64,000 nt of DNA, taken from Amycolatopsis umgeniensis (lineage in GTDB: Bacteria > Actinomycetota > Actinomycetes > Mycobacteriales > Pseudonocardiaceae). The DNA is taken from NCBI RefSeq assembly GCF_014205155.1, contig NZ_JACHMX010000001.1, forward strand, positions 2,914,001 through 2,978,000, given 5' to 3'. This document shows positions 3,122-52,463 of the stretch, piece after piece; the first letter of the stretch is position 1, and each line of letters begins with the position of its first letter. The notes below the pieces were generated by a model. That model made no database searches, was not told the origin of the DNA, and saw only the letters and a program-made list of their open reading frames with translations. The position numbers and the translations under genes were made by a program.

Positions 3122-5178
3122 ACCGTCACCACCAGGCTGGCATCCTCGCCGACCACGCAGTGAGCGCCCGGAGGAACGACCACGGTGGACTCGCGTTCTT
3201 CCACGATGGCCGGGCCTTCGACGCGATCACCCGGCTTCAGTCGGTACCGGTCGAACACCGCCGTGTCGACAAAGCCACCGTCGGCGGGGAAGTACGCCGG
3301 ACGACTCCCCTTGCGCGCGTCGCCTTCGGCCACCGCGTCCGCGAGTTTCAGAGTGACTTCGGGCACCGGGCCACGGGAAACGACCCGCCAGTTGAGCACC
3401 TCGATCGCGACGTCCGGCCCGGTCCGCCGGTACAGCGTCCGATAGGTCTCGGTGAAAGCGGCGACCAGCGACTCCGGCCAGTTCCCCCGCTCGACCGGTA
3501 CGCGGATTTCGTAGCCCTGCCCGGAATACCGCATCTCGGCGATCCGCCGGTGCGTCACCTCCGCACCGTCCACACCGGACTTCTCCAGCAGCTCCCCGCC
3601 CTCGGCCTCCATCTCGGCGAACAGCGCGTCGACCTGTTCCCCAGAGAGATCGAGTATCGCCGAACGCTCCGAGCGCACGAAGTCGAAGGCCAGTGGCGCG
3701 GTGAGGAATCCCGCCGCGCTCAGCACGCCGGCTGCCGGCGGGGCGACCACTTCGGGTGCGCCGAGCGCCCGCGCCACGCCGACACCGTGCACCGGTCCGG
3801 CGCCGCCGAAAGTGAACATCGGCAACTTCGCCGGATCCTTGCCGCGCTCGACGGCGTGGACACGCGCGGCGTTGGCCATGTCCTCGTTGACGCTCGTGTG
3901 AATACCCCAAGCGGCCTCTTCGACGCTGACCCCGAGCGGCCCGGCGATCTTCGCGCGAATCGCCTCGCGTGCGCCCTCGGCGTCCAAAGTCATTCCGCCA
4001 CCGAGGAAATATCCGGGATCCAGATAGCCGAGCACGAGGTCGGCGTCGGTCACGGTGGGCTCGGTGCCACCTCGTCCGTAGCAGACCGGGCCGGGCTCGG
4101 ACCCCGCCGAATCCGGGCCGACGGTGAGCAGGCCGAGCGCGTCGATACGGGCTATCGAGCCGCCGCCGACGCCGATCTCGATCATGTCGGTGACGGGCAC
4201 CTTGACCGGCAGCCCCGACCCCGGCAGCAGCCGGTACTTCCGGTCGACCTCGAACTCGTGCGTCACCAGCGGCGTACCACCGGAGATCATGCACAGTTTC
4301 GCCGTCGTGCCGCCCATGTCGAAGGCCAGCAAATCCTCGACACCGGTCGCGGAACCGATCGCGGACGCGGCCAGTGCCCCGCCCGCCGGACCGGATTCGA
4401 GGATGCGGATCGGGTAGCGCGCGGCCGTGTCGACGGTCGCGATCCCGCCGTTGGACAGCATGATGTGCGGCGACGGGCGCACCCCTGCCGCGTGCAGGCG
4501 CCGTTCCAGATCGCGCAGGTAGCGTTCGGTGAGGTCCTGCACATAGACGTTTGCGACCGTGGTGGACGCGCGTTCGAACTCGCGGATCTCCGGGACGACC
4601 TCGCTGGACAACGCGATCCGCAGCCTCGGCGCGACATCCTGGAGCACCTCGGCGGCGCGCCGTTCGTGCGCGGGATTCGTGAAGGCGTGCAGGAAACAGA
4701 TCGCCACCGCGTCGATCCCACGAGCGTCGAGCTCGCGGCCGAGACGAGCGACGTACTCCTCGTCCAGTCCTGTGTGGACGGAGCCGTCGGCGAGGATCCG
4801 CTCGGGGACGTCGAACCGCAGATGGCGCGGGACAAGCGGCGTCGGCAACTCGATGAGCAGGTCGTACAGTTCGTACCGATGTTCGCGCCGCATCTCCAGC
4901 ACGTCACGGAAACCGGCTGTCGCCAGCAGGGCGGTCCGCGATCCCTTGCGTTCGATCAGCGCGTTCGTGACCAGTGTGGTGCCGTGCACGAACTGCTCGA
5001 CGTCGGCCGCGTCCAGTCCGGCTTCGGCGAGTGTCCTCTTTAGACCTTCCTCAACGGCGCGAGCGGGCTCGTCGTGTGTCGTCAGCACCTTGCCGACGGC
5101 GACGATCCCGGTTTCGTCGAGCACGCAGAGATCGGTGAAGGTCCCGCCGATGTCCACGCCGACGCGAAGCCCGGTCAC
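3118..5178 (-). CDS. Hydantoinase/oxoprolinase A subunit (HyuA-like)
   Basis: 686 residues. The N-terminal actin-like ATPase signature GVDIGGTFTDLCVLDE is clear, followed by VHGTTLVTNALIERKG and the central FDMGGTTAKLCMISGG phosphate-binding segment; GGAGPVHGVGVARALG occurs in the C-terminal half. This is the ATP-binding subunit paired with the downstream HyuB-like gene (4-base overlap), and it in turn overlaps the TPP enzyme upstream by 4 bases. The A/B pair would couple ATP hydrolysis to ring opening or carboxylation. N-methylhydantoinase, 5-oxoprolinase and acetone/acetophenone carboxylase cannot be told apart from sequence alone. Confidence 0.9.
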   Translation of the reverse strand: MTGLRVGVDIGGTFTDLCVLDETGIVAVGKVLTTHDEPARAVEEGLKRTLAEAGLDAADVEQFVHGTTLVTNALIERKGSRTALLATAGFRDVLEMRREHRYELYDLLIELPTPLVPRHLRFDVPERILADGSVHTGLDEEYVARLGRELDARGIDAVAICFLHAFTNPAHERRAAEVLQDVAPRLRIALSSEVVPEIREFERASTTVANVYVQDLTERYLRDLERRLHAAGVRPSPHIMLSNGGIATVDTAARYPIRILESGPAGGALAASAIGSATGVEDLLAFDMGGTTAKLCMISGGTPLVTHEFEVDRKYRLLPGSGLPVKVPVTDMIEIGVGGGSIARIDALGLLTVGPDSAGSEPGPVCYGRGGTEPTVTDADLVLGYLDPGYFLGGGMTLDAEGAREAIRAKIAGPLGVSVEEAAWGIHTSVNEDMANAARVHAVERGKDPAKLPMFTFGGAGPVHGVGVARALGAPEVVAPPAAGVLSAAGFLTAPLAFDFVRSERSAILDLSGEQVDALFAEMEAEGGELLEKSGVDGAEVTHRRIAEMRYSGQGYEIRVPVERGNWPESLVAAFTETYRTLYRRTGPDVAIEVLNWRVVSRGPVPEVTLKLADAVAEGDARKGSRPAYFPADGGFVDTAVFDRYRLKPGDRVEGPAIVEERESTVVVPPGAHCVVGEDASLVVTV

Positions 5179-44646: not shown

Positions 44647-45720
44647 GCGATCCTGCGGCGGTACTCGGCGGACATCGCGATCACCGTGGCGGTGATCGCG
44701 AGTTCCGTCGCGGTCTCGCTCGGCGCGAGCGCGGAACCGCCGCGCAACGCGGTCCTCGGCTGGGTCTGCGCGGTGCTCGCCTGTGCCGCCCTGTTCCTGC
44801 GCCGCAGGCACCCGCTTCCCGTCACGATCTTCACCGCGGTGTGCTGCGCGCTCTACTACCCGTACACGGATCCCGACGGGTTCGTGCTGCTCGCCTTCGC
44901 CTTCGCGCTGTACAACAACGCCTCGACAGGGCGGATCCGCAGCGCGGCGATCGTCGCGGCGGCCGCGATGGGCGGTGTCGCGGTCGGCGAGGCACGGGGC
45001 GGCGCCGCTCGGCAGGTGGACAACTTCGCGTTCCTGCTGATGGCGGGCTGGTTCATCGCACTGGTCGCGGTCGGAGCCGTGACGTACTACCGCCGCGAAG
45101 CCGAGCGCACCAAGGAGTCGGAAGCACAACGAAGGGCCACCGACGAACGCCTCCGGATCGCGCGCGAACTGCACGACGTCCTCGGGCACAACCTCGCGCT
45201 CATCAACGTCCAGGCCGGCGCCGCGCTGCACGGCAAGGATCCGGCGAAATCCGAGGAGGCACTGGCCACGATCAAACAGACCAGCAAGGACGCGTTGCGC
45301 GAACTCCGCGCCACCCTGGGCATGCTGCGGCAGGCGGATACGCCGAGCCTGGCCAGGGTCGCCGAGCTGGCCGAGTCGGCGGGCGCGCACGGACTGATCG
45401 TCCGGACCGAAATCGACGGCACGGCGAGGGAGCTGCCACCCGCCGTCGAACACGCCGCTTTCCGGGTCGTCCAGGAGGCGCTGACCAACGTCGCTCGGCA
45501 CGCCGCGGCGGGCACCGTCGTGGTCCGGATCGGCTACACCGACCATGATGTGTCCGTGCAGATCGACGACGACGGCCGGGGAGGCGCCGCGAAGCCCGGC
45601 AACGGGATCCGCGGGATGGCCGAACGAGCCGAAGCGCTCGGCGGCGAATTCGCCGCGGCCGCGCGCGAGAACGGCGGCTTCCGTGTGCGTGCCCGGCTTC
45701 CCTTGCGGGCGGCGCGATGA
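44644..45720 (+). CDS. Two-component sensor histidine kinase (NarL-type, HisKA_3)
   Basis: 358 residues. Four to five N-terminal membrane spans (about 5-150) precede the dimerisation box RIARELHDVLGHNLALI with the phospho-acceptor His, and the HATPase domain has VVQEALTNVARHA (N box) and IDDDGRGG (G1). The GTG at 44644 is chosen from the leaderless promoter; an in-frame extension to 44590 would cross the promoter. It overlaps the response regulator gene by 4 bases. Confidence 0.92.
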   Translation: MAILRRYSADIAITVAVIASSVAVSLGASAEPPRNAVLGWVCAVLACAALFLRRRHPLPVTIFTAVCCALYYPYTDPDGFVLLAFAFALYNNASTGRIRSAAIVAAAAMGGVAVGEARGGAARQVDNFAFLLMAGWFIALVAVGAVTYYRREAERTKESEAQRRATDERLRIARELHDVLGHNLALINVQAGAALHGKDPAKSEEALATIKQTSKDALRELRATLGMLRQADTPSLARVAELAESAGAHGLIVRTEIDGTARELPPAVEHAAFRVVQEALTNVARHAAAGTVVVRIGYTDHDVSVQIDDDGRGGAAKPGNGIRGMAERAEALGGEFAAAARENGGFRVRARLPLRAAR

Positions 45721-46385
45721 TCCGGGTCCTGCTCGTCGACGACCAGCGGCTGGTCCGCGCCGGGTTCAAGTCCATTTTGGACGGCGAGGCCGACATCACG
45801 GTCGTCGCCGAGGCGGCGGACGGGCGGGAGTCCCTCGAAGCCGCGCATGAACACCAGCCGGACGTGGTCCTGATGGACATCCGCATGCCGGTGATGGACG
45901 GACTCACCGCGACCCGGCATCTGCTCGGAGACCCGGCGCTGACCGGGGTCAAGGTCGTCATCCTCACCACCTTCGACCTCGACGAGGACGTCTACGGTGC
46001 CCTGCGCGCCGGCGCCAGCGGATTCCTGGTCAAGGACACCGAACCGGAGGAACTGATCCACGGCGTCCGGGTGGTCGCACGGGGCGACGCGCTGCTCGCG
46101 CCGTCGATCACCCGCCGTCTGATCTCCGAATTCGCGGGCCGGGTGGCGCGGCCGGGGCCTTCGCCGGTGCTGAACCGGCTCACCGAACGCGAACGCGAGG
46201 TGATGAGCCTGGTCGCGGCCGGTCTGTCCAATGACGAGATCGCGAAGGAACTCGTGCTCAGCCCCGCCACGGCGAAGACACACGTCAGCCGGATCATGAC
46301 CAAGGTGGGCGTCCGCGATCGCGCGCAACTCGTCGTGCTCGCCTACGAATCGGGCATGGTCACCCCTCGCTGGTTGACCCCGTGA
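45717..46385 (+). CDS. LuxR/NarL-family response regulator
   Basis: 222 residues. The receiver domain has the acidic pair in VLLVDDQRLV and the phospho-acceptor Asp54 in VVLMDIRMPVMDG; the Lys is in LVKDTEPEELI. The C-terminal LuxR HTH is LTEREREVMSLVAAGLSNDEIA. It is cotranscribed with the sensor kinase and followed by an MMPL transporter, a likely target. Confidence 0.94.
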   Translation: MIRVLLVDDQRLVRAGFKSILDGEADITVVAEAADGRESLEAAHEHQPDVVLMDIRMPVMDGLTATRHLLGDPALTGVKVVILTTFDLDEDVYGALRAGASGFLVKDTEPEELIHGVRVVARGDALLAPSITRRLISEFAGRVARPGPSPVLNRLTEREREVMSLVAAGLSNDEIAKELVLSPATAKTHVSRIMTKVGVRDRAQLVVLAYESGMVTPRWLTP

Positions 46386-46482
46386 CCACAACTCCGGTAG
46401 TACGGGAAACGCCTTAGGGGTACCCAGAAGTTGCGGCCGGAGTGCCCGCCGGAGCCCGACGAAACGCGGGCGGGAAAAGCCG

Positions 46483-48594
46483 ATGCTTTCCGCCATGGAC
46501 ACCATCACGCTCTCCGAAAGGCGGCCTGGGGGCGGCCTTTCGAGGCTGGCAGGCTGGTCACAGCGCCACCGCTGGCTCGCCGTTTCGCTCTGGCTGCTCA
46601 CTCTTCTCGGCGTCACCCTGGGCTCGCAGGTGGCGGGCAGCGCCTACCACGACGACCATTCCCTGCCGGGCACCGAATCGCAGCGGATCATGGAACTGTT
46701 CGAAGCACAGGCTCCCGCGCAGACCGGCGCGACCGCCGAGATCGTCTTCAAGACCGAAAGCGGACTCGCGACCGCGCGCGGGCCGATCGAGGAGATGCTC
46801 GCCGAAGTCCGTTCACAGCCACATGTGAAAGCGGTGACCAGTCCGTTCGACGACCCGTCCGCGGTTTCCCGCGAGGGCACGATCGGTTATGCCGCACTGG
46901 CTTTCGACCTCGAGTCGAAGGATCTGCCCTACGACGACATCGTGCGTGTCGTCGACACCGCGAAGAAGGCCGAATCGGCCGGGCTCCGGGTCGAACTCGG
47001 CGGTGAACCGATCGAGCGGACCAGCGAGAGCGGTGGGCCGTCGGAGGGCGTCGGAATGCTGGCCGCGCTGGTGGTCCTCGTCTTCCTGTTCCGCTCGATA
47101 CTCGCCGCCGGTCTCCCGGTGATCGCGGCGATCTTCGCCGTCGGCAGCACGCTCGGCGTGATCGTGCTCGTCAGCAGGTTCGTCGACATCGCCAGCTACA
47201 CGGCACCGCTGATGATGCTGGTCGGGTTCGGCGTCGGCGTGGACTACGCGCTGCTCATCTTCAATCGCTACCGCAGCGAAATACTGAGCGGTCTCGACCG
47301 CGAACAAGCGGTGCGGCGCGCCCTCGACACCGCCGGGCGCTCAGTCCTTTTCGCCGGTGGAACGGTGATCATCGCGCTGCTCGGCCTGCTCGCGCTCGGT
47401 CTCGGCTCCCTGCGCGGTGTCGCTCTCGCGGTGGCGTTGACCGTCCTGGTGACGATGATCGCGTCGGTCACCCTGCTGCCCGCCCTGCTGTCGCTTTTCG
47501 GCCGCCGCCTGGAAAAGGGCATCCGCAAGCACGCGGAGAAACGGGAACACGGCAAGGCCTGGGGCAAACTCGGCGACGCCGTGCAGCGGCGGCCGCTGGT
47601 CCCGCTGGCGATCGGCCTGCTCGTCCTCATCGGACTGTCGCTGCCCGCGCTCGGCATGCGCCTCGGATTCGCCGACGCGGGCACGGCTCCGGAAACGTCG
47701 ACCACCCGGCAGGCGTACGACCTGATGGCCGAGGGCTTCGGGCCGGGCTTCAGCGAGCCGCTGATCGTGGTCACCGAGAACGGTGATGGCGTCGCGCTGC
47801 AACGGAAACTCGAAACCACACCGGGAATCGCCAAGGTGACGCCGCCGAGGGGACAAGGCGTCACGACGGTCCTCGCCTTCCCCACGTCTTCCCCGCAGGA
47901 CGAAGCGACCGCCGAGCTCGTGGAGCGGCTGCGGACCGAGGTGTTGCCGGGTCTGCCCGGGAACTACCTGGTCGGCGGGAGTGTCGCGGCGGCGGTGGAC
48001 TTCGCGGACGCCGTCGGCGACCGGTTGCCGCTGTTCGTGCTGGTGGTCGTCGGGTTATCGGCGTTGCTGCTGATGGTGGTCTTCCGGTCGATTCTCATCC
48101 CGCTCAAGGCGGCCCTGCTGAACTTGCTGAGCATCGGCGCCGCGCTCGGCGTGATGACGGCGGTGTTCGGCGACGGCCTGTTCGGCGTGCAGCCGGGACC
48201 GATCGAAGCGTTCGTTCCGGTGCTGATCTTCGCGATCGTCTTCGGGCTTTCCATGGACTACGAGGTGTTCCTGGTGTCCAGGATGCACGAGGAATGGCGG
48301 CGCACCGGCGACGCACGGCACGCCGTCCGCGAAGGACTCGCCTCCACCGGAGGGGTGATCACGGCCGCGGCGGTGATCATGATCCTGGTGTTCGGCGCGT
48401 TCCTGCTCAATCCCGATCGGATGCTGGCGCAGTTCGGACTCGGGCTGGCGGTGGCGGTGCTGGTGGACGCGTTCGTGATCCGCTGTCTCGTGGTGCCCGC
48501 GGTGATGCGCCTGCTCGGGGAACGTGCCTGGTGGCTGCCACGATGGCTGGACCGGCGACTGCCGCACGTGGCACTGGAACCGTCGTCCCGCTGA
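46483..48594 (+). CDS. MMPL family RND transporter
   Basis: 703 residues. Two similar halves, each with one span, a large extracytoplasmic loop and five spans. The MMPL motifs GVGVDYALLIFNRYRSE and FGLSMDYEVFLVSRMHEEW carry the proton-relay Asp-Tyr pairs. It probably exports a lipid or hydrophobic compound. The ATG at 46483 is chosen for the GGGAAA upstream; 46495 is possible. A terminator follows. Confidence 0.9.
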   Translation: MLSAMDTITLSERRPGGGLSRLAGWSQRHRWLAVSLWLLTLLGVTLGSQVAGSAYHDDHSLPGTESQRIMELFEAQAPAQTGATAEIVFKTESGLATARGPIEEMLAEVRSQPHVKAVTSPFDDPSAVSREGTIGYAALAFDLESKDLPYDDIVRVVDTAKKAESAGLRVELGGEPIERTSESGGPSEGVGMLAALVVLVFLFRSILAAGLPVIAAIFAVGSTLGVIVLVSRFVDIASYTAPLMMLVGFGVGVDYALLIFNRYRSEILSGLDREQAVRRALDTAGRSVLFAGGTVIIALLGLLALGLGSLRGVALAVALTVLVTMIASVTLLPALLSLFGRRLEKGIRKHAEKREHGKAWGKLGDAVQRRPLVPLAIGLLVLIGLSLPALGMRLGFADAGTAPETSTTRQAYDLMAEGFGPGFSEPLIVVTENGDGVALQRKLETTPGIAKVTPPRGQGVTTVLAFPTSSPQDEATAELVERLRTEVLPGLPGNYLVGGSVAAAVDFADAVGDRLPLFVLVVVGLSALLLMVVFRSILIPLKAALLNLLSIGAALGVMTAVFGDGLFGVQPGPIEAFVPVLIFAIVFGLSMDYEVFLVSRMHEEWRRTGDARHAVREGLASTGGVITAAAVIMILVFGAFLLNPDRMLAQFGLGLAVAVLVDAFVIRCLVVPAVMRLLGERAWWLPRWLDRRLPHVALEPSSR

Positions 48595-48605: not shown

Positions 48606-48635
48606 GGGAAAGGCCCGCAGTAACGGGCCTTTCCC
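48606..48635. terminator. Terminator hairpin between MMPL and S26 peptidase genes
   Basis: GGGAAAGGCCCG (48606-48617) and CGGGCCTTTCCC (48624-48635) form a perfect 12-bp stem with a 6-base loop between convergent genes; it can serve both. Confidence 0.82.
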
Positions 48636-48640
48636 GGTAC

Positions 48641-49057
48641 TCAGCCGAGACGGCGAAGCGCCAGGCCGAAGACCCGGTCCTCGGGAAAGTACCCGTGATG
48701 CCGCGAATCCGCGCTGAGCGCCCGGTTGTCGCCCAGCACCACCAGATGCCGTGGCGGCACGACCGCACCGGCCGCGACACGGCCCGCCGCTTCCTCGGGG
48801 ACCGTGTCCCCGCCGACCGCGACCACCCGTTTGACGGTCCAGCGCACCGGCAGCGGACCCGAACCGGGATTCTCGAGCACGACGACGTCCCCCACCGCGA
48901 TGGCTTGGGGGCGTTGCCGCGCCAGTATCCTGTCGCCCTCGTGGAACGTCGGCGTCATGCTGGAACCCGTCACGGCGATCACCGCCCAACGCCGCTTAGC
49001 CCAGCGCAGCACCAGCAGACCGGAAGCCGCCGAAGCCAGCAGGGCCAGGATCTTCAC
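48641..49057 (-). CDS. S26 family signal peptidase
   Basis: 138 residues. A single N-terminal span (ILALLASAASGLLVL) precedes the catalytic Ser33 in TGSSMTPTFHEGD, the Lys in RWTVKRVVAVGGD and the box VVLGDNRALSADSRHHG. It is short, like the proteases annotated as nickel-superoxide-dismutase maturation peptidases. The GTG start overlaps the ABC gene stop (GTGA). As last gene of the cysteine-rich peptide operon it is a candidate to cleave the peptide at its Ala-Ala-Ala site. No sodN is present. Confidence 0.87.
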   Translation of the reverse strand: MKILALLASAASGLLVLRWAKRRWAVIAVTGSSMTPTFHEGDRILARQRPQAIAVGDVVVLENPGSGPLPVRWTVKRVVAVGGDTVPEEAAGRVAAGAVVPPRHLVVLGDNRALSADSRHHGYFPEDRVFGLALRRLG

Positions 49058-50883
49058 GAGACTTCCTGAACGTATCCGTTGGCCTGCAGCCGGAAGAGCC
49101 GCGAATAGGTGCCGTCCAGCGACACCAGTTCGTCGTGGGTGCCCAGCTCCGCGACCCGGCCGTCGACGAGCACGGCGATCCGGTCGGCCGCCCGTACGGA
49201 TCCGAGCCGATGGGAGATGAGCACACTCGTGCGGCCGGCTCGATGCTCGGCGAGCGAAGTGTGGATCTCGTGTTCGGCCTCGGCGTCGAGCCCCGACGTG
49301 GGCTCGTCCAGGATGAGCAGATCCCGCTGGTCCCGCAGGAACGCCCGCGCGAGCGCGACCCGCTGCCATTGCCCGCCTGAGAGCAGGACACCGGTTTCCG
49401 GATCGTCCTTGTCCTCCTCGCTGACGAAACTCCGGGAAAGAAGTGTCCGGTAACCGCGAGGCAGATTCGCGAGCGTGTCGTGGATTCCCGCTCGCTCGGC
49501 CGCGGCTGTGAGCCGCTCGTCGACAGGGCCCAGTTCGTCCGCGCCGTCGACGTCACCGAGCGCGATGTTCTCCGCCGCGCTCATCTCGTAGGTCATGAAA
49601 TCCTGGAACACCGCGCCGAGTCTGCGTCTCAGTTCGTCGACCGGCAGATCGCGCAGGTCGGCACCGTCCCAGAGCACGGCTCCGCGGGTCGGGTCGTAGA
49701 ACCGGCACAACAGTTTCACCATCGTGCTCTTCCCCGCCCCGTTGTGCCCGACCAGCGCCATCGACTCTCCACAAGGGATGAAGAGGTTCACCCCGCGCAG
49801 CACCCACGGATGCCCTGGGCCGTAGCGGAACCAGACATCGCGGAACTCGATCCCATGCCGCAGCGGCGAAACCTTTCCCGGCTCCGGCGGAACGGGGAGA
49901 TCGGAGCCTTCCGTCGTCACGGTGCGGTAGTGCTCGAACAACAGCAGGGCGTTGTGCGCCGCACCGATCCGGCCGATCAGATTGGCGAGTGAACCCTGCA
50001 CGCCCGCGACGGCCGCGGTGAAGACAGCTATGTCACCGACGGTCAGCTGACCTCGGCCCGCGGCCAGCACCGCCCAGACCAGCCCGGTACCGGCGACGAC
50101 GGCGCTGAGCGCGCCCAGCAACCCCTGGACGCGCAACTCACGAAGATCGGTACGGCGTCGTTGCGTGTTGGCCTTGCCGAGCTCGGCCAGCATCCGGCCC
50201 CGGAACAGCTTGCCGAGCCCGAGCAACCGGATCTCCTTGGCGGCGTCGAGGCCGGTCATCAACTGCATGTAGAAGAACTCACGCCGTTCGGTGGGGCTGA
50301 GACCGGTCAGCACCTGCGCACGGCGCTTGCTCAGTTTCAGTTCCGCGATGAGCGTCGGGACCGCGGCGACCATCACGACCGCGGTGACCGGGAGGCTGAC
50401 CGCCGCCAGCGACACCAGGAACCCGACCGTGGTCAGCACGGCCTGGACGCCGCCGACGAACGAATCCAGGATCACGCCGGGACCGGAGTAGCTGTGCTGC
50501 TGGGCCAGGTGCAACCGGTCACGGTAGGCGGGCTGTTCGAGGCGGGCGAGGCCGGCCAGCCGTCCTGTCGCGAGATACAGCCGGTCCCTGGTGAGCAGGG
50601 TGACCCGGCGGGTGAGCTCACCCGACAGGTACCGCCCGGCCTCGCCGAGCAGCGCGACCGACACTCCCGCGACAGCGAGACCCACGGCGAGCAAGGTCAG
50701 CTCGTCCAGCCGGACCTCGGCCGCGACCACCCGGTCGAGAACGAGCTTGGTCAACCACGCGACGATCACCGGCAGGACACCCGTCAGCACGCTGATCGCG
50801 AGACTGCCCAGCAGGATCAGCGGCGCGGCGGCCCAGGCGACACCCAGCGCGACGACGGCCGACCGCGGGCCAGGAGAGCTCAC
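49054..50883 (-). CDS. ABC transporter, fused permease and ATPase
   Basis: 609 residues. A six-span exporter domain (about 1-320) is followed by the nucleotide-binding domain with Walker A VGHNGAGKSTM, signature LLSGGQWQRVALARA, Walker B DLLILDEPTSGLD and the H-loop VLISHRLGS. There is no C39 peptidase domain at the N-terminus, so any leader cleavage must be done by another protease; the adjacent S26 peptidase is suited. The GTG start overlaps the stop of the thioredoxin-like gene. Confidence 0.92.
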   Translation of the reverse strand: MSSPGPRSAVVALGVAWAAAPLILLGSLAISVLTGVLPVIVAWLTKLVLDRVVAAEVRLDELTLLAVGLAVAGVSVALLGEAGRYLSGELTRRVTLLTRDRLYLATGRLAGLARLEQPAYRDRLHLAQQHSYSGPGVILDSFVGGVQAVLTTVGFLVSLAAVSLPVTAVVMVAAVPTLIAELKLSKRRAQVLTGLSPTERREFFYMQLMTGLDAAKEIRLLGLGKLFRGRMLAELGKANTQRRRTDLRELRVQGLLGALSAVVAGTGLVWAVLAAGRGQLTVGDIAVFTAAVAGVQGSLANLIGRIGAAHNALLLFEHYRTVTTEGSDLPVPPEPGKVSPLRHGIEFRDVWFRYGPGHPWVLRGVNLFIPCGESMALVGHNGAGKSTMVKLLCRFYDPTRGAVLWDGADLRDLPVDELRRRLGAVFQDFMTYEMSAAENIALGDVDGADELGPVDERLTAAAERAGIHDTLANLPRGYRTLLSRSFVSEEDKDDPETGVLLSGGQWQRVALARAFLRDQRDLLILDEPTSGLDAEAEHEIHTSLAEHRAGRTSVLISHRLGSVRAADRIAVLVDGRVAELGTHDELVSLDGTYSRLFRLQANGYVQEVS

Positions 50884-51422
50884 CTGACCGCCAGGCGCGG
50901 CAGCACTTCCGGCTGGAAGCCGGCGGCCACGACCCGCCCACCGGGACCGAGCATCGCCACCACGGGCGTTCCGCGTACCTCGAAGGCCTTGCTGACCACG
51001 CCCCCGACCGGCTCGACGACGACACGGGCCACCGGTGCCAGCCTGGCGACGAACTCGGCCGCGCCGTCGGCGTCTCCTTGGACCACGGCGAGAACGTGCT
51101 CCCGGGGATGATCTTTCGCGTGCTCGACGAAGTCAGGAAGCTTCTCGATACACGTATCGCACTCGACGGCGAAGAACCCCGCGAGCGTCTGTTCGGTGAA
51201 GCCGGACCGCGATACTTCGGCACCGTCGATGGTCCGCGCGGTGAAGTCCGCGACCCGGTTCCCTTCGGCCACCATGACCGGCCCCGCGGGAACGCGGTTC
51301 TCGAGCGCCTTGCCGATCAGCTCGGAGTGGGTGCGCAGCCTCTTGATCACCCCGAACGTCAGCACCAGATCGAGCACGAGCAGAGCGCCGACCAGAACGA
51401 GAACGGCGATCAGGATCCCCAT
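50880..51422 (-). CDS. Membrane-anchored thioredoxin-fold protein (MauD/TlpA-like)
   Basis: 180 residues. One N-terminal span (LIAVLVLVGALLVLDLVLTF) is followed by an extracytoplasmic redoxin domain with the active-site Cys-x2-Cys in FAVECDTCIEKLPDF and the cis-proline in RGTPVVAML. It would form or isomerise disulfides outside the membrane. Paired with the MauE-like gene 2 bases upstream, it recalls the MauD/MauE pair that matures the disulfide-rich light chain of methylamine dehydrogenase. Its likely client here is the six-cysteine peptide. Confidence 0.85.
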   Translation of the reverse strand: MGILIAVLVLVGALLVLDLVLTFGVIKRLRTHSELIGKALENRVPAGPVMVAEGNRVADFTARTIDGAEVSRSGFTEQTLAGFFAVECDTCIEKLPDFVEHAKDHPREHVLAVVQGDADGAAEFVARLAPVARVVVEPVGGVVSKAFEVRGTPVVAMLGPGGRVVAAGFQPEVLPRLAVR

Positions 51423-51424
51423 AC

Positions 51425-51976
51425 CTACTCCTTGACGAGTTCCGGGACGTCCCGGAAAAGTTCCACGATGTCGTCGGAGCGCACGGCGACGAAGCCGACG
51501 ACGAGACCGGCGCAAAGCGCGACGGCCGTTCCCGGAAGAGCGCCGTGCGGTGATTCGACGAGGGAAGCCACCGAGCCGATCAGCGCGATACCCAGCAACA
51601 GGACGTTGCGCACCACCTGGGGTACGCCGAGTGGCATCGCGCTCCTGCCGAAGCAATGACACGGCGCGCGTTCGCCGCGCGACAGCGACAGCGTGATCGC
51701 CGCGGTGAACACCGCGAGAAGCGCCGCCGCACCGGTGAATGCCGGGAAGAGGGCACTCCACCACCGGCCCGCCGAACCGGTGATCAGCACCCCCACGATG
51801 ACGAATTCGACCGCGACGACCATTCTCGCGACAATGGCGCGTCGCGCGCGCGGAATCAGTCCCAGTGGCCCCGCGGACGCCACAAAGGAACGAAATCTTT
51901 CGCCGCCGAATTTGCCGGCGGCGGAGATACCGAACACGAGAGTCAGCGCGGCGGCGCAAGCGATCGACAAGTACAT
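51425..51976 (-). CDS. MauE/DoxX-like redox-associated membrane protein
   Basis: 183 residues with four to five membrane spans. The MauE hallmark is the cysteine pair in RAPCHCFGRSAM, placed in a loop between spans. Such proteins pass electrons between a thioredoxin-like partner and the membrane. The gene follows the peptide gene after 61 bases that include a strong hairpin, and has GGGGAG upstream of its ATG. Confidence 0.84.
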   Translation of the reverse strand: MYLSIACAAALTLVFGISAAGKFGGERFRSFVASAGPLGLIPRARRAIVARMVVAVEFVIVGVLITGSAGRWWSALFPAFTGAAALLAVFTAAITLSLSRGERAPCHCFGRSAMPLGVPQVVRNVLLLGIALIGSVASLVESPHGALPGTAVALCAGLVVGFVAVRSDDIVELFRDVPELVKE

Positions 51977-51999
51977 GCGTTCTCCCCACCCCTGGAAAG

Positions 52000-52029
52000 G
52001 GAAGACGGCGGCCGAAGCCGCCGTCTTCC
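52000..52029 (-). terminator. Hairpin between cysteine-rich peptide and mauE-like gene
   Basis: GGAAGACGGCGGC (52000-52012) pairs perfectly with 52017-52029; on the minus-strand RNA the loop is UUCG, an extra-stable tetraloop. It begins 8 bases after the peptide stop, with only a broken U-rich stretch after it. That makes it a likely partial terminator or 3' stabiliser of an abundant peptide mRNA. Confidence 0.75.
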
Positions 52030-52037
52030 GGCACTTC

Positions 52038-52211
52038 TCAGCAGCGGGTGCTGACCTGGTAGCAGAGGCAGCTCACGCAGTCCTTGTAGAAATGCCACCT
52101 GCGCCCGGCCTCGTCGGGCCAGCACCCACAGAATTCGTGCGCCGCCGCCGGCACTTCGGGCACCACTTTGCCCAGTAACCGATCACCGAGTTTCTGAACC
52201 AATTCGAGCAT
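52038..52211 (-). CDS. 57-residue six-cysteine peptide, putative exported precursor
   Basis: Starts MLELVQKLGDRLLGKVVPEV, then PAAA, then a 33-residue tail from His25 with Cys28, 30, 45, 48, 50 and 57 (pattern C-x-C-x14-C-x2-C-x-C-x6-C). The N-terminal 20 residues form a charged amphipathic helix, not a Sec signal. Ala-Ala-Ala before His25 looks like a signal-peptidase cleavage site. The ATG at 52211 has GGTGG 8 bases upstream; a GTG at 52223 is less well placed. I do not recognise a family. Context (MauE, MauD-like, ABC exporter, S26 peptidase) suggests a disulfide-rich peptide bacteriocin, signal or structural peptide. Confidence 0.72.
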   Translation of the reverse strand: MLELVQKLGDRLLGKVVPEVPAAAHEFCGCWPDEAGRRWHFYKDCVSCLCYQVSTRC

Positions 52212-52396
52212 GACAAATACCACCTTCCCCAGTTCCAGTGAATTTGACGTGCATCAGCGGGAGAATAGACGGACTTCAAGCCAAAGAAATCATTACTCCA
52301 ACCCCCAGTCGGCCGGCCCCCACCGATTCGGTCACGATAGCGGGAGAAATACGGCAAGGCAACAGGCTGCGAACGCGCCACCCCTTTGCCGCACAG

Positions 52397-52437
52397 AAGG
52401 GGCCGTTCAGGACGATGTCTGTCCTGAACGGCCCCTT
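52397..52437. terminator. 17-bp terminator/REP-like hairpin
   Basis: Arms 52397-52413 and 52421-52437 are fully complementary (core GGCCGTTCAGGAC) with a 7-base loop. It lies 27 bases past the FadB stop and upstream of the peptide gene, both on the minus strand, so it ends the fatty-acid operon and insulates the peptide operon. Confidence 0.82.
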
Positions 52438-52463
52438 CGTGTCATGCCTGGCCGGGAAGTGGC

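Follow-up and report, generated by a model that had tools for sequence, protein, structure and literature searches.

A system of the kind described here was foreseen by computation in 2020, when decRiPPter, in a scan of Streptomyces only, flagged three candidate families of ribosomally synthesized and post-translationally modified peptides (RiPPs) with a mauE gene, one of them also with mauD; according to the part of that report available to us, their precursors have at least eight cysteines, the strict filter demanded transporter, peptidase and regulator genes, and the authors proposed a role of mauE/mauD in precursor modification (PMC7794033). In this work we analyzed a 64,000-nucleotide stretch of the genome of the soil bacterium Amycolatopsis umgeniensis (contig NZ_JACHMX010000001.1, positions 2,914,001 to 2,978,000; hereafter the window), whose minus strand carries, from 52211 down to 48641, five open reading frames (ORFs) for a Cys-rich peptide, a MauE-family protein, a redoxin, an ABC exporter and an S26 peptidase. 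On comparative grounds we consider it probable that the product of this cassette is a secreted peptide cross-linked by disulfides, which arises by ABC export, S26 cleavage and oxidation by the MauE/redoxin pair.

As in the decRiPPter families, a mauE homologue lies here beside genes for a precursor, a transporter and a peptidase; however, the window peptide has six cysteines instead of at least eight, whereas a second operon of the same genome does encode an eight-Cys precursor. In the available part of the report no leader motif, AxA site or link to S26 is given, and those families can be set beside this cassette by description only. The initial annotation had called the system undescribed. 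This was too strong in view of the 2020 prediction, but the available part of that report leaves this kind of system uncharacterised, and we found no later description of such systems in the open-access literature. As far as searched, what appears to be new is a leader shared throughout the class, the tie between the AxA site and the S26 enzyme, an occurrence in several families of actinomycetes, variants that are fused or lack S26, the behavior of the genes as a cassette and a mechanism with a predicted product mass.

With the methylamine dehydrogenase cluster the locus shares a MauE of Pfam family PF07291, a MauD-like membrane redoxin and a presumed formation of disulfides, but the substrate there is the dehydrogenase and here a short peptide; to our knowledge, little is known about the role of MauE outside methylamine metabolism. 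Neither PF02975 (mauA) nor PF09055 (sodN, Sod_Ni) was matched in the A. umgeniensis genome, the control genomes being equally silent. In C39 bacteriocin exporters, a dedicated ABC exporter and a leader protease act on the leader. Unlike those systems, with their double-glycine leaders, the ABC protein of the window gave no match to a C39 peptidase domain in a Pfam scan, no double glycine precedes the core, and a separate S26 enzyme accompanies an AxA site. An S26 enzyme that removes the leader from one specific substrate is known in the SodX-type protease of nickel superoxide dismutase, but the S26 protein of the window reached only 36.2 bits against TIGR02754 (Ni-SOD maturation protease), below the cut-off of 63.25. 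The defensin-like bacteriocins actifensin and laterosporulin are short secreted peptides with three disulfides, as is predicted for the product here; the actifensins are actinobacterial and ABC-linked, and their Cys pattern as given in the accessible part of the source, C-X5-12-C-X3-C-X9-10-C-X4-5-C-X-C, differs from that of the window core (Table 1; PMC6989792).

The precursor and its partner genes

The ORF list, the translations and the Pfam/NCBIfam matches agreed with the initial annotation as to the place, families and motifs of the five minus-strand ORFs and the close linkage of the last four: a gap of 61 bp separates the peptide gene from mauE and one of 2 bp mauE from the redoxin gene, and the redoxin/ABC and ABC/S26 pairs overlap by 4 bp each. 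The CxCFG motif of MauE was present in 40 of 40 relatives and the CxxC of the redoxin in 36 of 36, while SM.P..K(R/K)..GD was found in 34 of 36 S26 relatives, the two misses being a clipped start and a degenerate sequence.

Translation also gave the expected peptide of 57 residues, with cysteines at positions 28, 30, 45, 48, 50 and 57 and Ala22-Ala23-Ala24 ahead of the Cys-rich half. An alternative in-frame GTG at 52223 would make it four residues longer; the ATG start is favored because this GTG falls within the likely ribosome-binding site. The peptide falls outside all Pfam and NCBIfam models. Its frame is kept at the protein level in close relatives, as it should be if the initial proposal holds: it was found in three of 59 other genomes searched, with identities of 100, 93 and 93%, and non-synonymous and synonymous substitution rates (dN/dS) in the three peptide pairs were 0.030/0.441, 0.038/0.259 and 0.015/0.302, the substitutions being mostly silent. 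The 57-residue peptide is thus under purifying selection. Its leader has a best 15-residue Kyte-Doolittle mean of 0.44, the average over the leaders of 93 precursors being 0.72, and the 33-residue product would have a monoisotopic neutral mass of 3983.67 Da when reduced and 3977.62 Da with three disulfides.

A common leader, an S26 enzyme and variable cores

The family was surveyed by a MauE search of 297 genomes, 44 of which, including that of A. umgeniensis, gave matches at 58 places. A first set of 41 loci of about 15 kb each (39 of the places, together with the G014 locus and the Rugosimonospora locus L007) contained MauE, redoxin and ABC genes together in 36 cases; a leader-type Cys-rich ORF was present in 35 of these 36, and S26 in the same 35. 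No precursor was found in the five loci having MauE without redoxin and ABC genes. One of them, L075 (G234:C8), has MauE beside a degenerate-looking S26 frame, without redoxin, ABC gene or precursor, and is possibly a decayed operon. With unchanged models, the 18 remaining places yielded 14 loci with MauE, redoxin and ABC, in all of which a leader ORF and S26 were found too; of the other four, a partial locus also had this pair and three contained MauE alone, with neither. The Cys-rich leader peptide therefore occurs in 49 of 50 family-search loci with the three partner genes, and the short ORF that the initial annotation had made part of the system is a regular member of homologous operons (35 of 36, and 14 of 14 held out).

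A wider, class-level survey used a redoxin profile on 394 genomes, of which 31, again including our own, matched at 59 places; 40 loci were fetched first. A leader model trained on leaders without cysteines retrieved 33 ORFs in 27 of these 40 loci, all of them with 6, 8 or 10 Cys. A search by eye added AxA-leader precursors in seven more (L116, L132, L145, L126, L127, L146 and L135), so that AxA precursors were present in 34 of 40 loci, or in 37 when the eight-Cys peptides without AxA in L136-L138 are counted. Among the 15 remaining class loci, examined with the models only, 13 had both a leader ORF and S26. These 15 and the 18 family places form a held-out set of 33 loci, with models unchanged and nothing added by eye. 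Several precursors may stand beside one set of machinery genes: three in L111 and L134, two in L119, L070, L182, L203 and L206. Two eight-Cys precursors of Kibdelosporangium (P0015 and P0024) are publicly labelled as 'ShKT domain-containing'.

The strongest comparative support for export, cleavage and oxidation comes from the way in which S26 and the AxA leader go together. In the 36 family loci, 35 had both and one had neither. In the 40 class loci, model hits alone gave 26 with both, one with the leader only, seven with S26 only and six with neither (nominal Fisher p 0.003); with six of the by-eye additions the table became 32/1/1/6 (nominal p 1.2e-5), and with L135 also included there were 33 with both, one with the leader only (L120) and six with neither. 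The first 76 loci, scored partly by eye and with L135 taken as leader-positive in that way, thus comprised 68 with both, seven with neither, L120 with the leader only and none with S26 only. The held-out loci, scored by the models only, comprised 28 with both, four with neither (three of them MauE alone), one with S26 only and none with the leader only. The variant loci L136-L138 agree with this picture. Their eight-Cys peptide lacks AxA (FAPVNALRD in L136) and no S26 lies within 15 kb, a joint absence that ties S26 to AxA; in addition, MauE and redoxin are fused in one ORF, which ties MauE to the redoxin, and an extra ABC ATPase lies upstream. Taken together, the comparison strongly supports the prediction that the S26 enzyme cuts at the AxA of the leader, and the export and disulfide-forming steps proposed by the initial annotation also gained comparative support.

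The leader itself was described on 93 precursors (31 from loci, five found by the model and 57 database proteins). It has the constant form LGDRLLxxxVPxxxAxA, in which the distance to the AxA is fixed: of 80 distinct leaders, 75 have an Asp 14 residues ahead of the last Ala, usually followed by Leu-Leu and Pro, and the spacing to [AVG]-x-Ala is 8 in 92 of the 93 precursors and 7 in one. The last residue of the site is always Ala and the third-last is Ala in 64, Val in 27 and Gly in two. In the class-wide leader hits the AxA occupied the fixed offset in 33 of 33 cases, any other offset reaching at most 14 of 33. The cores, in contrast to the leader, form 21 clusters when grouped at 50% identity, mostly with 6, 8 or 10 Cys; between cluster representatives mean identity was 42% for the leader, 28% for the core and 19% for the core without its cysteines, that is, the conserved leader and variable core by which a RiPP is recognized. 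The number of core cysteines was even in 92 of 93 precursors, the odd one being a singleton cluster, in 33 of 33 class-wide hits and in 31 of 31 Cys-bearing held-out hits; three further weak held-out hits contain no Cys and look like chance. The Cys spacing C-x-C-x(12-16)-C-x2-C-x-C-x(5-7)-C, which the initial annotation put forward as a search signature, was confined to the orthologues of the window peptide among 31 peptides inspected. Judged from these sequences, the class is marked by its leader and not by the Cys spacing.

The second operon of this type in the same genome (L078) lies at G000:C1:8514816-8515013 (open frame 3805-4023 of the locus). It encodes the eight-Cys precursor mentioned above, with the leader MRKTVERLSDKLLSVFVAKADVGA, followed by redoxin, ABC and S26 genes and with MauE last, and apart from the window peptide it alone matched the family profile in the 9.2-Mb genome, 150 of 485 candidates having been scored. 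Its precursor family is common to several Pseudonocardiaceae.

Proposed route and alternative explanations

In the route that we propose, the 57-residue precursor would be produced in larger amounts than its partners, with the hairpin that follows its stop codon (Table 1) serving as an attenuator. A strong fold (z < -2, mononucleotide shuffles) lies 3' of 20 of 31 precursors, which fits an attenuator favoring precursor expression, and the hairpin is probably an attenuator or an mRNA-stabilizing element. The 24-residue leader would then address the precursor to the dedicated ABC exporter, as suggested by the absence of a Sec-type hydrophobic core, and the peptide would cross the membrane reduced and unfolded. 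Outside the cell, the dedicated S26 enzyme would cut after the conserved AxA (Ala24), taking the place of the C39 domain of other exporters; the membrane-anchored redoxin would oxidize the six cysteines to three disulfides through its CxxC and be re-oxidized by MauE as DsbA is by DsbB, an arrangement with which the MauE-redoxin fusion agrees. The product would be a secreted peptide of 33 residues, most likely bacteriocin-like, antagonistic in another way or signalling. Several varied copies of cores are typical of antagonistic peptides. The varied cores and the multiple copies per locus lead us to guess at such a role, and the cores seem too varied for one common binding site; for antimicrobial activity as such, our guess stands at about even.

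Several points weigh against this reading. L059 has MauE, redoxin and ABC genes with neither precursor nor S26; L212 has all four partner genes and no precursor by the leader model, the only search made there; no clear precursor was seen in L123 or in L139, which has the redoxin only; L213, of the same genus as L136-L138, gave neither leader ORF nor S26 by the models; and L144 (end 6949, minus strand) has, near the redoxin gene, a short six-Cys ORF ending in MYCFCNSGRWCCATTTYYACYDHGC, with both the class leader and S26 lacking nearby. In seven of the 40 class loci the AxA precursor was found only through the search by eye, and the co-occurrence p-values are optimistic, as relatives are not independent and L136-L138 and L213 belong to one genus. 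The counts on 93 precursors serve as a description of the family and not as a test of it, because the pattern and the leader model contain the AxA, so that its score is partly built in, and because the first 31 precursors were picked by eye for leader and Cys-richness. Fairer tests are the class-wide leader hits (although that model has itself learnt to expect the Ala), the held-out loci and the co-occurrence with S26, which is independent of the motif. The even Cys number is weakened as an argument by unrelated ORF tails with at least six Cys, 62 of 85 of which are even too, and six loci have cores with only four Cys (L071, L127, L181, L195, L197 and L204). The redoxin scored 21.3 bits against PF08534, below the cut-off of 26.6. 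AlphaFold gave no confident fold for the core of the window peptide (predicted local distance difference test 50.5); the model of its eight-Cys relatives was beta-rich, with laterosporulins among Foldseek neighbors below significance.

The best of the other explanations, though an unlikely one, is a secreted peptide that binds copper, zinc or iron, with MauE and the redoxin keeping its thiols reduced. CxC and CxxC pairs are frequent in metal sites, and MauD/MauE serve the assembly of a metabolic enzyme, according to the part of the decRiPPter report available (PMC7794033). A single metal site would, however, fix the Cys spacing, which varies among the core clusters; the five cassette proteins match no metal transporter or metalloregulator family among the matches listed; and a CxxC redoxin fused to MauE would fit oxidation better.

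We regard as distinctly less likely still a thioether-bridged or otherwise enzyme-modified RiPP, such as a lanthipeptide or a sactipeptide, for which the redox pair would be merely protective. The leader with its variable Cys-rich core is what one expects of a RiPP precursor, but Pfam and NCBIfam gave no modification enzyme among the five cassette proteins, that is, no dehydratase, cyclase or radical-SAM enzyme (for the ABC protein in NCBIfam, among the matches listed), and at sites lacking the operon nothing else travels with the cassette; a modifying enzyme from another part of the genome might still act on the peptide. An equally low probability goes to the idea that S26 and the redox pair serve another substrate, for instance an exported enzyme encoded elsewhere, with the peptide as their chaperone, inhibitor or regulator. 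SodX-type S26 proteases are known for enzyme maturation, as are MauD/MauE in the accessible part of the 2020 report (PMC7794033); yet diverging precursors beside one set of machinery, with a constant leader and a variable core, look like a product, and AxA and S26 occur together. Finally, a short frame in a GC-rich genome could be a chance ORF, a reading refuted here by orthologues in relatives with dN far below dS in all three pairs and by the near-universal presence of the precursor in homologous operons.

Beyond the window, we lean, with less confidence than for the cassette itself, towards an actinomycete-wide class of ribosomal peptides with disulfides only, defined by one leader, at least 21 dissimilar cores, ABC export, a captured signal peptidase in place of a C39 domain and MauE-redoxin as a DsbA/DsbB pair that is dedicated to peptides and acts outside the cell. 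If so, secreted, disulfide-knotted peptides would form a large family without a name in actinomycetes, now annotated as 'hypothetical protein' and recognizable by a simple leader; leader, S26 and MauE together would offer a handle for genome mining and a possible source of antimicrobials. The machinery would amount to a general chassis for the folding and export of peptides with two to six disulfides, which might serve the production of disulfide-rich peptides in bacteria, and MauE would gain a testable partner and substrate outside methylamine metabolism.

Cassette borders and neighboring elements

The extent of the cassette was determined with the neighboring FadJ gene as an anchor, comparing 30 loci from the 40 genomes of the genus that matched. 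The operon was present in four of the 30. In seven of the 26 loci without it, the flanks (window 48616 and 52456-52462) meet within 35-53 bp; because of this the five genes form one cassette, and the difference in those seven genomes is exactly this stretch. In L164 and L165 the flanks are similarly close with slightly different breakpoints, L158 and L166 have other DNA between them, and the remaining operon-less loci could be aligned at just one of the flanks in the 1.5 kb examined.

Table 1. Features of the cassette in window coordinates
Feature	Position	Strand	Basis
Precursor gene, 57 aa, six Cys	52038..52211 (stop included)	-	ATG at 52211, conservation, dN/dS, leader family
Leader, residues 1-24, MLELVQKLGDRLLGKVVPEVPAAA, no Cys	52140..52211	-	no hydrophobic signal-peptide core
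Ala22-Ala23-Ala24, predicted S26 cleavage site (-3/-1 rule), before His25	52140..52148	-	fixed [AVG]xA in relatives
Predicted mature peptide, residues 25-57, 33 aa, six Cys, C-x1-C-x14-C-x2-C-x1-C-x6-C	52041..52139	-	
MauE-family membrane protein, 183 aa, CxCFG motif (APCHCFG)	51425..51976	-	PF07291, E 2.9e-22
MauD/TlpA-like redoxin, membrane-anchored, 180 aa, CDTC	50880..51422	-	PF08534, E 2.4e-4
ABC exporter, permease-ATPase fusion, 609 aa	49054..50883	-	ABC ATPase domain match
S26 (signal peptidase I family) peptidase, 138 aa, SM..K..GD motifs	48641..49057	-	TIGR02227, 77.7 bits (cut-off 47)
Hairpin, 13-bp stem and UUCG loop, right after the precursor stop	52000..52029	-	z -3.65
Discrete cassette	48617..52455	.	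flanking DNA adjacent in seven relatives without it

Convergent with the cassette, a LuxR-type response regulator and an MMPL transporter are encoded on the plus strand at 45717-48594, and the end of the MMPL gene keeps its place in relatives without the cassette. Inverted repeats lie at both cassette ends, at 48606-48635 (GGGAAAGGCCCG...CGGGCCTTTCCC) and at 52396-52438 (AAGGGGCCGTTCAGGAC...GTCCTGAACGGCCCCTT); they are perhaps two-way terminators for the neighboring genes.

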